A DNA stretch of 64,000 nucleotides from Caldilineaceae bacterium SB0661_bin_34 (GCA_009841145.1 VXMJ01000048.1:1-64000), one strand, 5' to 3'. Positions 59,776 through 64,000 are shown, counted from the first letter of the stretch. The notes: generated by a model from the letters alone, not told the origin. A program made the numbers and translations.

Positions 59776-59829
59776 CCACGCCGGTACGGGAACGACCGCC
59801 GGAGGCGGGACCCAACTGCTAAACCTCCG

Positions 59830-60148
59830 GGAAGCGGTTATGCAGGGGTGGGTACGCCTGAAACGGAGGTGCAGGCCCTGCTGCAGCACCTCGTAGAATG
59901 CTGGTACGACACGGTGCACAGCGAGCTGGCAGCTGCCATGCCCGCCCCGTCAACCGCTTCGAGGGATGGTTCGGCCGCTTCAATCCCAGGGACCGCCTAG
60001 TGCGGAGGCTGAAGACCAAGGTGGGCACCCTCAACTTCGTGCGTTTGATGGTCCGCGGCATGGCCTGAACCGACGCACGGAATCCCCGCTTGTATGGAGA
60101 TTGCCCATAACGGCCCGCAACCAATATCAACGAGATTGAAACAGTGCC
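59830..60148 (+). pseudogene. Transposase C-terminal fragment with right IS end
   Basis: The frame PVNRFEGWFGRFNPRDRLVR and LKTKVGTLNFVRLMVRGMA, stopping at 60068, is the tail of an IS transposase; upstream LLQHLVECWYDTVHSELA in another frame implies a frameshift. Fifty-eight bases later the inverted end TCAACGAGATTGAAACAGTG then CC (60127-60148) is intact. It may be the 3' part of the same IS type whose 5' part is at 20.1-20.6 kb. Confidence 0.65.
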
Positions 60149-60397
60149 GATCTCTGGGTGGCTGTCATATATGTGTCACAATTGACTGATAATGGCTTAG
60201 ATGAGTGTTGTTTGTTCGAAGTCACTGCCTCAATGCATCCTTCTTCGCGAACGGGAATCCATTGGACTGCAAGAGAGATACGCAAACGGATTCGTGCAAT
60301 CAACCGATATTCGAAGGCGAGCGACTGAGAAATCCTTGGCGGATCCAGTGTGGCTCTTGGCAATGCGCAGGAATCAATGTGGGACCAAGAGGCACTC

Positions 60398-60724
60398 ATG
60401 AACGACTTGATCGCCAGATTCGATACCAACCGGCCGCTGCTCCGCACGATGTATGGTGGACAGGAAGCTCGACGGGGTGAATGCAGTTCGGACGATCTCC
60501 CGCCTAATTCGCATGTACCCCGCGGTACGAAGGGCAGGAGGATATTCGACTCCGCTAACCCGGCCCGGGAGAGCCGAGATGCGTTCGAGTTCTACTGGGA
60601 GACTGTCCTGTTCTTGAAAAAGACAGATCCCAAACTACTTGGATTCAACCTAATCCTGGACAGCGCATTCCACAAGATCGTGGACACTGTGAGGCCGGGT
60701 GTGGCTTGGAGGCGCAGTCAATGA
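60398..60724 (+). CDS. Small unknown protein preceding double-ATPase gene
   Basis: 108 residues, unrecognised. The N-terminus (MNDLIARFDTNRPLLRTM) and middle are polar; the C-terminal part FEFYWETVLFLKKTDPKLLG and FNLILDSAFHKIVDTVRPG looks helical and conserved in character. A GAGG lies six bases before ATG 60398; ATG 60377 is an alternative. Its stop overlaps the next start by ATGA, showing tight coupling to the ATPase. Confidence 0.6.
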   Translation: MNDLIARFDTNRPLLRTMYGGQEARRGECSSDDLPPNSHVPRGTKGRRIFDSANPARESRDAFEFYWETVLFLKKTDPKLLGFNLILDSAFHKIVDTVRPGVAWRRSQ

Positions 60725-62922
60725 ACGTATCTGACGCGTCGGAACTTACGAGTAATACCGACGACAATGACAAAATGCGAGTTGCCTTTCGCTTCCACTC
60801 CAGGGTCCTTGCGGCACTCGGCCGCGACCTGGTGACAAACGATGTGGTCGCAGTCATGGAGCTGGTCAAGAATGCGTACGACGCGCTCGCGACCCAGGTT
60901 GAGGTACGCATCCGTCCGGAAGCCCGTGGCGGAGAGGGACCCTCCATCGAAATCATCGACAACGGACAAGGGATGGACCACACCACGATCGTGGATGTTT
61001 GGTGTGTGATCGCAACTCCCTTCCGACAAGAACGCCCCATCTCGAAGACCAGCCGATATTCGCGTGCCGTTACCGGCGAGAAAGGTCTCGGTCGCCTCTC
61101 GGCGGCCAGACTCGGGCGAACACTCAGTGTTGTCACAAGAGCCCGGAATAGCCCCGTGTTGGGATTCTCCTTGGACTGGGACGAGATGATGGAGGTGGAT
61201 GACTTGGCCGATGCGGCCTTCGAAGTGTCCCACCTGCCCCCTGACTCATTTGATGGACAACACGGTACCCGGATTCGGATCGACGGACTGAGGAGTACTT
61301 GGGACAGGAAAAAGATTGATGATCTGCGTGAAAATCTGGTGCGGCTCGTGTCACCGTTCTCGACTGCGGAGGACTTCGCGCTGAGCCTCAATGTTGCGGA
61401 TCTCTACGAGGAGCCGACGCTGAGGATCACCGCTCCAGAGTTCATGGCGGAGCCCAAGTACGCGATCGAGGGTTGTGTTGATGATGACGGGACGATTCGG
61501 GCCCTGTATCGGTATCATCCCGTCGGCCGTCCGATCGCACGCGAACACGTGTTGCGCGAGGAGTGGGTGAAACCTGTACCGGCTGGATCTCTGTTCAATG
61601 CATCGGAGCTGAGTGGGCACCGTCCTGAATGTGGTCCGTTTCAGTTTGAGATCCGGGTGTGGGATCTCACCAAGGACGACACGCGCGACATTGCCGAACA
61701 CTTCGGTGAGAATCGGAGCAGGATCCGCGGTCTGATTGCATCGCGACGCGGGATATCCGTCTATCGCGACAGTGTTCTTGTGCTGCCTAAATCGGAAGGC
61801 ACCCGCGATTGGCTGGGACTAGACATCAGAAGGGTGAGCAAGGTCGGGCCGCGTTTGAGCACTAGTCAGGTTGTCGGATACGTCCGGATCACGAAGGAGG
61901 ACAACCCCGGGATCGTCGACACGAGTGATCGAGAGGGCCTCGTGTCGAGCACTGCCACGGCAACCTTCCGGGACCTCATTCTCCGAATCGTGGAATTGCT
62001 GGAGGTTGAACGGCACGCCGACCGCATGCAGGAGAAGGACACGGATACTGCGCAGGAACTGTTTGCGAACCTGAGCGCGGAACCCCTCGTCACCAGACTG
62101 GAAGAACTGCGCAAGGCTGGAGGAGGCATGTCGGATGCCATTGAGGTTACCAAGGACTTTGGGCAGGAACTGGAACGAAGTCGCGCCGACATCGAGCGGC
62201 GTTTCGGGTACTACAATCGCTTGGCGGTCATCGGCACCATAGCCCAGATGGTCATTCATGAGATACGGAACCGGACAACCGTCATTGGACGAGGGCTCCG
62301 AAAGGCCGAAGAGTTGGCCGACCGGGTCCAGGACTTAGTTGTTGGCCGGGCATTAGAGATGGCAAAGGAATCAGTGATGTCTTTGGAGTCTCTAGCCGAT
62401 CGCTTCGCACCGCTTGCCAGCCGAGGTTACCGTCCAGGCCGACGCACATCGGTCGTGGAGGAATCCATCGACCGTTGTCTCGCGATGCAAAAACGGGCGA
62501 TCAGTGCCAGTCAAGTTGCCATTGAGGCCCCATCCGATTCCTGCACCGCCGTGCGTATCGATCCGGGTGAGATCGACGCGGTGATCCTCAACCTGCTTGC
62601 CAACGCTTTGTATTGGCTGCAACGATACGAAGGGGAACGTAGACTCCGCTTCAGATTGGCAGAAGACTCGGTTTCTGGACGGGTTACGGTGTCGGTGGAC
62701 GACTCCGGTCCGGGAATCGATCCCGAAGACCGGGAACGAGTGTTCTGGCCCGGAGTCACGCGCAAGCCGGATGGCTTCGGCATGGGGCTGACGGTCGCGT
62801 CGGAACTCGTTGATGGACACGGAGGCAAGATGAAAACGACGGTGCCGGGAGATTTAGGCGGGGCAACGTTCCAGTTCGATCTCCCGCTCGTTGAAAAAGC
62901 AGGCGAGGATAGGCATTCGTGA
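60721..62922 (+). CDS. Dual GHKL ATPase: HSP90-like N-terminus plus histidine-kinase C-terminus
   Basis: 733 residues. First ATPase: N-box ELVKNAYDA (47-55, Asn51), EIIDNGQGMD (77-86), GEKGLGRLSA (119-128), a HATPase_c_3 fold as in HSP90/MutL/MORC. A ~300-residue middle region follows. Second part: VIHEIRNRTTVI with His513 as the likely phosphoacceptor, N-box NLLANALYWL (Asn628), DDSGPGIDP and GFGMGLTVASELV, a full histidine-kinase catalytic domain. No membrane segment or signal peptide: a cytoplasmic sensor. It overlaps genes on both sides by four bases; the response regulator follows. Substrate or stimulus unknown. Confidence 0.85.
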   Translation: MNVSDASELTSNTDDNDKMRVAFRFHSRVLAALGRDLVTNDVVAVMELVKNAYDALATQVEVRIRPEARGGEGPSIEIIDNGQGMDHTTIVDVWCVIATPFRQERPISKTSRYSRAVTGEKGLGRLSAARLGRTLSVVTRARNSPVLGFSLDWDEMMEVDDLADAAFEVSHLPPDSFDGQHGTRIRIDGLRSTWDRKKIDDLRENLVRLVSPFSTAEDFALSLNVADLYEEPTLRITAPEFMAEPKYAIEGCVDDDGTIRALYRYHPVGRPIAREHVLREEWVKPVPAGSLFNASELSGHRPECGPFQFEIRVWDLTKDDTRDIAEHFGENRSRIRGLIASRRGISVYRDSVLVLPKSEGTRDWLGLDIRRVSKVGPRLSTSQVVGYVRITKEDNPGIVDTSDREGLVSSTATATFRDLILRIVELLEVERHADRMQEKDTDTAQELFANLSAEPLVTRLEELRKAGGGMSDAIEVTKDFGQELERSRADIERRFGYYNRLAVIGTIAQMVIHEIRNRTTVIGRGLRKAEELADRVQDLVVGRALEMAKESVMSLESLADRFAPLASRGYRPGRRTSVVEESIDRCLAMQKRAISASQVAIEAPSDSCTAVRIDPGEIDAVILNLLANALYWLQRYEGERRLRFRLAEDSVSGRVTVSVDDSGPGIDPEDRERVFWPGVTRKPDGFGMGLTVASELVDGHGGKMKTTVPGDLGGATFQFDLPLVEKAGEDRHS

Positions 62923-64000
62923 ACACCGTTAGAGTGCTGATCATCGACGACGAGGAATCTCCTAGGCAGACCCTCCGCGACACGTTGATGGAGGAGACTG
63001 GGTGGGTTGTGGAGGACCACGGATTCGAGGTCCTCGAAGAAACTCTTGTTCGTTTTCGGCCCGATATAGTTGTCCTTGATCTCATGGAAGGCAACCCTCC
63101 CGAGCGCACAGACACCGGGAACAGATCGTTCGATCAGATCCGTGAGACTTGGTTCTGTCCCGTTGTTGTCTACTCTGCTTTTCCAGATGAGCAGCACTTC
63201 AAGCACCCGCTTGTGGAAATGATCGTCAAGGGTTCAGACAGCGATGTGCAAGTGCGGGATTGCTTGAAGGGGTTCGTTCCGCAAGCAGAGATGATTCGAT
63301 CCGTGCATGACGATTTTGACGCGCGTGTCCGCGAGGCACTGCGTGATTCTGTCCACGCACTCGGCGAGCAGATGGGCACAGAGACCAATGGCTCTGCTGA
63401 TTCGACTCTTGCGCGCGCTGTGCGCCGGCTGGTAGCAGCCCGTGTCGATGCCGGAGCTTCGGCGGACGCAACGCTGCATGCTTGGGAGCGATGGATCGTG
63501 CCACCGCTAGGCGATCACCTGCTCACGGCGGATTTGCTAAGGCTCAAGCAGGAGGATTGGGAAAACCAGAAAGCCTTCCGCTTGGTTCTTACGCCCTCTT
63601 GCGATCTGGCTACCAGTCACGACCGAGAGCCGAAGGTCGGAAAGGTCTTGGTCGCCTGCTGTGAGCCCATGAAGCAGTTCGGAAGGATCCAGCTACAAAT
63701 GGGCCAGAGGCTCCGTCCACGGGTGCAGAATCAGTTGAGCTCGATTCTGACCGAGGGGATGGCCGACAACATCCTTCCCATTCCCGGCTTCCGCGGTCAC
63801 GTTCCGCTGATGGTTGCCAACCTCAAACGTTTGGAACTCATCGAGTGGAGCAGGATCGATCTCGGAGTGGAGGATGACGATGCCGAGAAGGCACACCCCG
63901 AGTTTTGTCGCGTGGCTTCGACCGACAGCCCGTTTCGGGAAATGGTGGTCTGGGCGTACCTTCGGGTCACGGGCCGCCCCGGAGTCCCCAATATCGATGT
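62919..64000 (+). CDS. Response regulator with unusual C-terminal domain (partial at window end)
   Basis: At least 360 residues, running past the end of the window. GTG start overlaps the kinase stop (GTGA). Receiver domain: VRVLIIDDEE (Asp10/11), VVLDLMEG (phosphoacceptor Asp54), VVYSAF (Ser86) and IVKGSDSD (Lys104). After a helical linker the region ends in FRLVLTPSCDLATSHDREPK with Cys228; a CDL-type motif like this occurs in uncharacterised proteins of conflict and restriction loci. No HTH output domain is seen. Likely output of the upstream dual ATPase. Confidence 0.75.
   Translation, partial: MNTVRVLIIDDEESPRQTLRDTLMEETGWVVEDHGFEVLEETLVRFRPDIVVLDLMEGNPPERTDTGNRSFDQIRETWFCPVVVYSAFPDEQHFKHPLVEMIVKGSDSDVQVRDCLKGFVPQAEMIRSVHDDFDARVREALRDSVHALGEQMGTETNGSADSTLARAVRRLVAARVDAGASADATLHAWERWIVPPLGDHLLTADLLRLKQEDWENQKAFRLVLTPSCDLATSHDREPKVGKVLVACCEPMKQFGRIQLQMGQRLRPRVQNQLSSILTEGMADNILPIPGFRGHVPLMVANLKRLELIEWSRIDLGVEDDDAEKAHPEFCRVASTDSPFREMVVWAYLRVTGRPGVPNID

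Follow-up and report, generated by a model that had tools for sequence, protein, structure and literature searches.

What does a bacterium gain from a soluble kinase that joins two different ATPases to a response regulator with no evident means of binding DNA? The question is raised by a locus at the end of a 64,000-base stretch of Caldilineaceae bacterium SB0661_bin_34 (GCA_009841145.1; VXMJ01000048.1:1-64000). This stretch, hereafter the window, comprises bases 1-64000 of a 72,730-base contig, and genes past 64000 were read from the rest of that contig. A sequence-only reading of the window had suggested a cytoplasmic relay in a defence setting, in which an HSP90/MORC-like clamp signals to a non-transcriptional effector, and this idea holds up well in light of a predicted effector fold and the island in which the genes lie. 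The make-up of the operon suggests that it encodes a restriction-like system based on signalling instead of a restriction enzyme. We favor a model in which it is a defence module resembling restriction-modification (R-M), with a two-component pathway and a toxin- or nuclease-like effector in place of the restriction enzyme, and give this model a probability of roughly 0.42.

A kinase-regulator-methylase operon under purifying selection

The operon lies on the plus strand and encodes a kinase, a response regulator and a C5-cytosine methyltransferase, each stop overlapping the next start. The kinase has 733 amino acids (aa) when read from its most likely start, an ATG at 60721 (60721..62922, within an open reading frame (ORF) at 60706-62922). 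The regulator (379 aa) starts at 62919, overlapping the kinase stop (62922), occupies 62919..64000 in the window and continues past its end to a stop at contig position 64058, which in turn overlaps the start of the methylase (contig position 64055-65086; PCQ and ENV motifs intact). Three coupled genes had been proposed from the sequence, of which the overlapping kinase and regulator stand; the third is the methylase, which was missed because it lies outside the window, and not the small upstream protein that had been counted in its place. The same three genes occur in the same order in the closest genome, that of a congeneric Caldilineaceae metagenome-assembled genome, with 89% identity for the kinase and 83% for the regulator. 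Between the two genomes the ratio of nonsynonymous to synonymous substitution rates (dN/dS) is 0.24 for the kinase, 0.25 for the regulator and 0.07 for the methylase, and the operon is under purifying selection.

The kinase is a hybrid ATPase/sensor histidine kinase that carries both GHKL ATPases in a single protein, as the earlier reading had it. An N-terminal ATPase of the paraMORC/HSP90 type (HATPase_c_3; 60847..61191; Pfam E 3e-16) is followed by the phosphoacceptor His513 in the motif HEIRN (62257..62259, numbered from the ATG) and by a C-terminal histidine-kinase ATPase (HATPase_c; 62560..62889; Pfam E 5e-24). His513 is invariant in 29/29 kinase family members, as are E47, N51, D54, D80, G82, G84, G119, K121, G122 and G124 of the first ATPase and N624, N628, D661, G663, G665, G685, G687 and G689 of the second. 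In PADLOC and NCBIfam the first ATPase matches restriction enzymes of the BbrUII/HgiDII type. No membrane segment was found in the kinase, the highest 19-residue Kyte-Doolittle mean being 1.06, in agreement with its reading as a cytoplasmic protein. The receiver domain of the regulator (62919..63302) is likewise intact: D54 (codon 63078-63080) is invariant in 30/30 sequences, the family retains D11, S/T86 and K104, and in a model of an orthologue with 83% identity the receiver is matched by solved receivers with Z ~16. Judged by these alignments, the residues required for phosphotransfer are intact and invariant in both proteins.

The supposed small protein is a 124-aa ORF on the plus strand (60398..60724; the open frame is also given from 60350) that we rejected as a component of the module. 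It is not a gene but a broken, frameshifted remnant of HsdR, a type I restriction subunit, and bears no sign of selection. One frame contains FDxxRPLLRTMY and the next continues with VDRKLDGVNAVRTISRLIRMYP; both pieces match consecutive residues (~696-727) of the HsdR whose gene lies 5 kb downstream. The match scores 31.2 bits, where the best of 60 shuffles reached 20.8. Its dN/dS against the congeneric genome is 1.28, with no third-position preference among the substitutions.

An output domain with a predicted toxin fold

The C-terminal part of the regulator had been said to lack a DNA-binding output and to carry a conserved-looking Cys-Asp-Leu. Searches with Pfam, NCBIfam, PADLOC and sequence comparison against the Protein Data Bank (PDB) found neither a DNA-binding nor a known enzymatic output domain; none of the 30 family members matched a Pfam family in this part, whether of a transcription-output or a housekeeping kind, and no solved structure in the PDB was matched by sequence. 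As to the motif, its Cys and Asp proved invariant in 30/30 sequences together with a nearby Pro (P226, C228 and D229 of the TPSCD motif T225-D229; 63591..63605, plus strand), while the Leu of T225-P226-x-C228-D229-L varies to M or F. Across these sequences, which come from many phyla, D205, P338, R353 and G355 are also invariant.

Structure prediction was more informative. The output domain (63513..63980, plus strand; regulator residues 199-354) is predicted to adopt the fold of MazF/CcdB toxins. We modelled it alone because the full-length regulator, compared with the PDB in VIA, returned receivers only, and from the 83%-identical orthologue because the window drops the last 19 regulator residues; the window regulator was a row in the underlying alignment. 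The model has a predicted local distance difference test score (pLDDT) of 85.6. Among its top 50 matches in Foldseek, one is a CptIN (ToxN-type) chain and all others are MazF/PemK/Kid-type toxins, with E values from 1.3e-3 and probabilities mostly of 0.99-1.0. In VIA-align it superposes on MazF-mt3 with Z 10.8 (102 residues aligned, root-mean-square deviation 2.9 Å) and on CcdB with Z 10.6. The model also matches phage PemK-like proteins. Our searches found no literature linking a MazF fold with a response regulator, and as far as we could find a MazF-fold output of these regulators is new.

The fold bears on how the module might attack. In the model we favor, the domain would be a toxin- or nuclease-like effector for which RNA cleavage or growth arrest is likelier than DNA cutting. 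A different proposal is that it is a phosphorylation-activated DNA nuclease and that kinase and regulator together make a two-part restriction enzyme. A methylase needs a matching attack arm, no other nuclease recurs beside these operons, and the effector has invariant Cys, Asp and Arg residues, all of which would suit such an enzyme. However, the predicted fold is that of RNA-cutting or gyrase-targeting toxins, not of PD-(D/E)XK, HNH or PLD nucleases, and no metal-site signature is apparent in the domain; we consider direct DNA restriction unlikely.

Proteins resembling the output domain also occur on their own. Five standalone proteins of ~185 aa (L153, L154, L156, L157 and L158) carry the GD...SQSCDL...RVGLP signatures of that domain, and for three of the five the genes of a small protein and a TIGR04255-like protein lie directly 5'. 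The two that were tested belong to no Pfam, NCBIfam or PADLOC family, and the set could be an uncharacterised MazF-fold family. As far as our searches of the literature went, neither the output domain nor its predicted fold or standalone forms had been described.

Relatives, linked methylases and the defence island

A single scan of 84,980 species genomes yielded 36 loci, and the neighbourhood counts given here use the 31 in which both regulator and flanks were usable. The kinase adjoins the regulator in 31/31 of these loci, which span many phyla and are not confined to core two-component loci. A C5 methylase lies within 6 kb in 28/31, often with overlapping genes, and a separate gene for Vsr or an HhH-GPD mismatch glycosylase is present in 14/31, linking the system to mismatch repair as well as to C5 methylation. 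One longer methylase that we tested has a C-terminal part resembling HhH-GPD/EndIII, although the match is weak. The branch that includes the window has the compact order kinase-regulator-methylase, and other branches have methylase-kinase-regulator. Distances between kinases correlate with those between regulators at r 0.94, which points to co-inheritance of the two proteins.

At its own site the operon shares a defence island with genes for type I R-M and DRT1, in line with the defence setting first proposed. Synteny with two congeneric genomes (G002/G003) ends at ~59784, past which both congeners run straight into other shared genes, so that the island is missing from that site. The left edge is a repetitive element (59778..60149, strand not assigned) that starts at the synteny break and has dozens of copies in congeneric genomes. 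Genes for HsdR, HsdS and a DRT1a-type reverse transcriptase lie 3' of the operon; no significant match to Vsr or HhH-GPD was found in the 14.7 kb around it. The reverse transcriptase (L002:12906-14702; contig position 70906-72702) matches DRT1a models at E 1.7e-196 and, with 598 of ~1176 aa, is of half length; its partner half may be missing or lie past the contig end. HsdS (L002:10766-12460) is a single frame with a C-terminal DUF4160 domain, adjoining a DUF2442-like protein, an arrangement that represents either an unusual fusion or a frameshifted junction.

Such a setting could bring together genes that have nothing to do with one another. Unrelated genes gather in defence islands and this one has a repeat-rich mobile edge, so that the pair might be an ordinary stress-response two-component system lying beside R-M genes through shared mobility. 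The nearness of a methylase in nearly all relatives across phyla, often with overlapping genes, argues against chance company, as do the strong linkage and R-M enrichment already published for related systems (PMC8011034), and we regard this explanation as very improbable.

A further question is whether the pair attacks or governs. An all-against-all comparison of neighbours found no recurrent restriction nuclease beside the operons beyond MORC/Z1/PD-(D/E)XK sets in a few, leaving the kinase-regulator pair as the sole candidate for the attack arm of a minimal system. Bellieny-Rabelo et al. (2021; PMC8011034) suggested a two-component control of R-M, in which the phosphorylated regulator would tune the expression or activity of the methylase or of neighbouring R-M genes and would not itself be a weapon. 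The constant C5-methylase linkage would be expected on this account, and in Hymenobacter, an archaeon and a Streptomyces the pair stands beside MORC/Z1 or MORC/Z1/PD-(D/E)XK genes. However, minimal systems contain no recognisable nuclease to be controlled, and the output domain, with its predicted toxin fold, matches none of the known domains for DNA binding or protein interaction. Control of R-M by the pair seems to us rather unlikely.

In the module we favor, the C5-cytosine methylase would mark host DNA, and the paraMORC/HSP90-like clamp of the kinase would check DNA or a DNA-bound complex. Unmarked or invading DNA, or some other sign of infection, would trigger the clamp; the kinase would autophosphorylate on His513 and hand the phosphate on to regulator residue Asp54. 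This could in turn free or dimerise the MazF/CcdB-fold domain, if control runs in this direction, and the domain would then act as a toxin- or nuclease-like effector, presumably with a protective outcome.

Several observations weigh against this scheme. The output domain has no detectable MazF sequence homology: hhalign against PemK-family sequences gives a probability of 1.1%, and the MazF/PemK profile PF02452 matches none of the 30 regulator family members. The position of the MazF catalytic Arg is moreover variable in the family. For these two reasons we claim the fold alone, from which any toxin or RNase activity can only be guessed. The three loci without a methylase are all from Streptomyces, and the methylase follows in part an evolutionary course of its own: its distances correlate with those of either partner at 0.65-0.69. 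Finally, members of the MORC/Z1/PD-(D/E)XK set occur only at L079, L088 and a Hymenobacter plasmid (L064), the set being full at L064 and L079 and partial at L088; at these three the pair might serve to regulate and not to attack.

Related pairs seem to be combined with different DNA-marking systems, as far as sequence signatures allow us to judge. The N-terminal profile of the kinase also finds kinases beside phosphorothioation-type genes (L054, L055), in clusters where we identified DndA-like desulfurase, DUF4007-like and PAPS-reductase-like proteins by eye rather than by profile. The regulators there (714-722 aa) contain ...NxxCDL...RLPFA...RVG[LM]P; these C-D and R-V-G signatures, which follow one another as in the MazF-fold domain but with weak scores against the profile, are what suggest the combination with other marks. 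Two distant genomes (L056, L059) encode an N6-type methylase, a paraMORC-kinase, a 237-aa receiver protein and an MBL-fold protein, again identified by eye. These findings raise the possibility, which we hold tentatively, of a widespread immune class in which a MORC-like clamp kinase reads DNA modification and signals by phosphotransfer to a receiver-controlled MazF-fold toxin that replaces the restriction enzyme, the pair being combined with C5 methylation and with phosphorothioation-type genes. At a further locus (L052:6821-10869) a paraMORC-kinase lies directly 5' of a DrmA-like DISARM helicase, and no regulator gene separates the two.

No close relatives of the window regulator were found on plasmids or phages. 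Searches with other family members recovered more distant regulators on Campylobacter, Enterobacter, Hymenobacter and Fusobacterium records, and relatives occur on conjugative Campylobacter plasmids beside dcm. One of these, Campylobacter coli pCCDM224L (L063), is a conjugative plasmid with kinase, regulator and dcm, and related kinases are present on 41 Campylobacter plasmid records.

Comparison with known systems

The domain shares only its predicted fold with MazF/PemK/CcdB toxins, from which it differs in its invariant set (GD, TPxCD and RxG) and in being fused to a receiver. The best-described effector of the Detocs defence system is an ATP-cleaving nucleosidase, and to our knowledge Detocs is not methylase-linked. 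No nucleosidase domain of the Detocs type (PNP, PF01048) was matched in the window proteins or the regulator family. Like the module proposed here, Detocs is a two-component phage defence, of three genes, that ends in a cell-toxic effector (PMC11249213). In VcSduA, a type I-D Shedu system with a paraMORC3 protein, the GHKL ATPase is essential for phage defence (PMC12137116), which provides a precedent for the defence role we propose; unlike the window kinase, that ATPase is fused directly to a nuclease and works without kinase, receiver or methylase.

The paraMORC families were described by Iyer et al. (2008; PMC2292703), and the comparison made here is with the part of that paper covering paraMORC1, with its C-terminal extension, and the MORC/Z1/PD-(D/E)XK set. 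Shared features are the GHKL and S5-type ATPase and R-M neighbourhoods with C5 methylases and Vsr. In GHKL motifs and R-M context, compared by description, the window kinase resembles paraMORC1, to which it may belong. What extends the window kinase at its C terminus is an entire histidine-kinase module, partnered by a receiver protein, an arrangement absent from that part of the paper.

The closest counterparts are the two-component-like HEF_HK (PF19191)/Response_reg_2 (PF19192) systems, whose association of kinase, regulator and C5 methylase was published in 2021 with a proposal of signalling that controls R-M, and with neither output domain nor effector for the pairs (PMC8011034). They share with the window operon a soluble kinase of HATPase_c_3, His-helix and HATPase_c, an adjoining regulator and a C5 methylase. 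The window proteins are shorter (kinase 733 vs ~1000 aa, regulator 379 vs 555-617 aa), the His motif is HEIRN, and Vsr, frequent beside the published systems, is not found near the operon (14.7 kb). By the Pfam models the window proteins fall outside these families: PF19191 does not match the kinase at E 1, at which a control HEF_HK protein matches with 6e-7, PF19192 does not match the regulator at E 1 (control 1.5e-14), and PF19192 is found in 0/201 genomes of the phylum. Homology to control members is nevertheless seen. The PF19192 controls have the same genes side by side, and 2/3 carry ...YWLCLSPACDLV... in the C-terminal part; our kinase family profile matches their linked kinases at E 1e-69 to 1e-73. 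Searched in a small database, the regulator profile aligns with PF19192 proteins in the receiver as well as in the C-terminal part, the best domain having an i-E of 1.6e-7, and hhalign of the regulator family with these proteins gives 87% on a 3-row template, with the CD-motif region near the regulator end. Because of these matches in control genes, kinase profile and CD motif, the window system is a divergent branch of the kind described in 2021, overlooked by the PF19191 and PF19192 models, and is not unprecedented. The 2021 description left the function open, and the predicted MazF/CcdB fold offers a first concrete, testable idea of an output. If correct, our model would join R-M marking, two-component signalling and toxin-type effectors, which are normally separate. 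It would also account for the ability of paraMORC ATPases to work in restriction-like systems in which no restriction enzyme can be recognised. The pair could also give a simple bacterial model for how MORC ATPases read DNA methylation.

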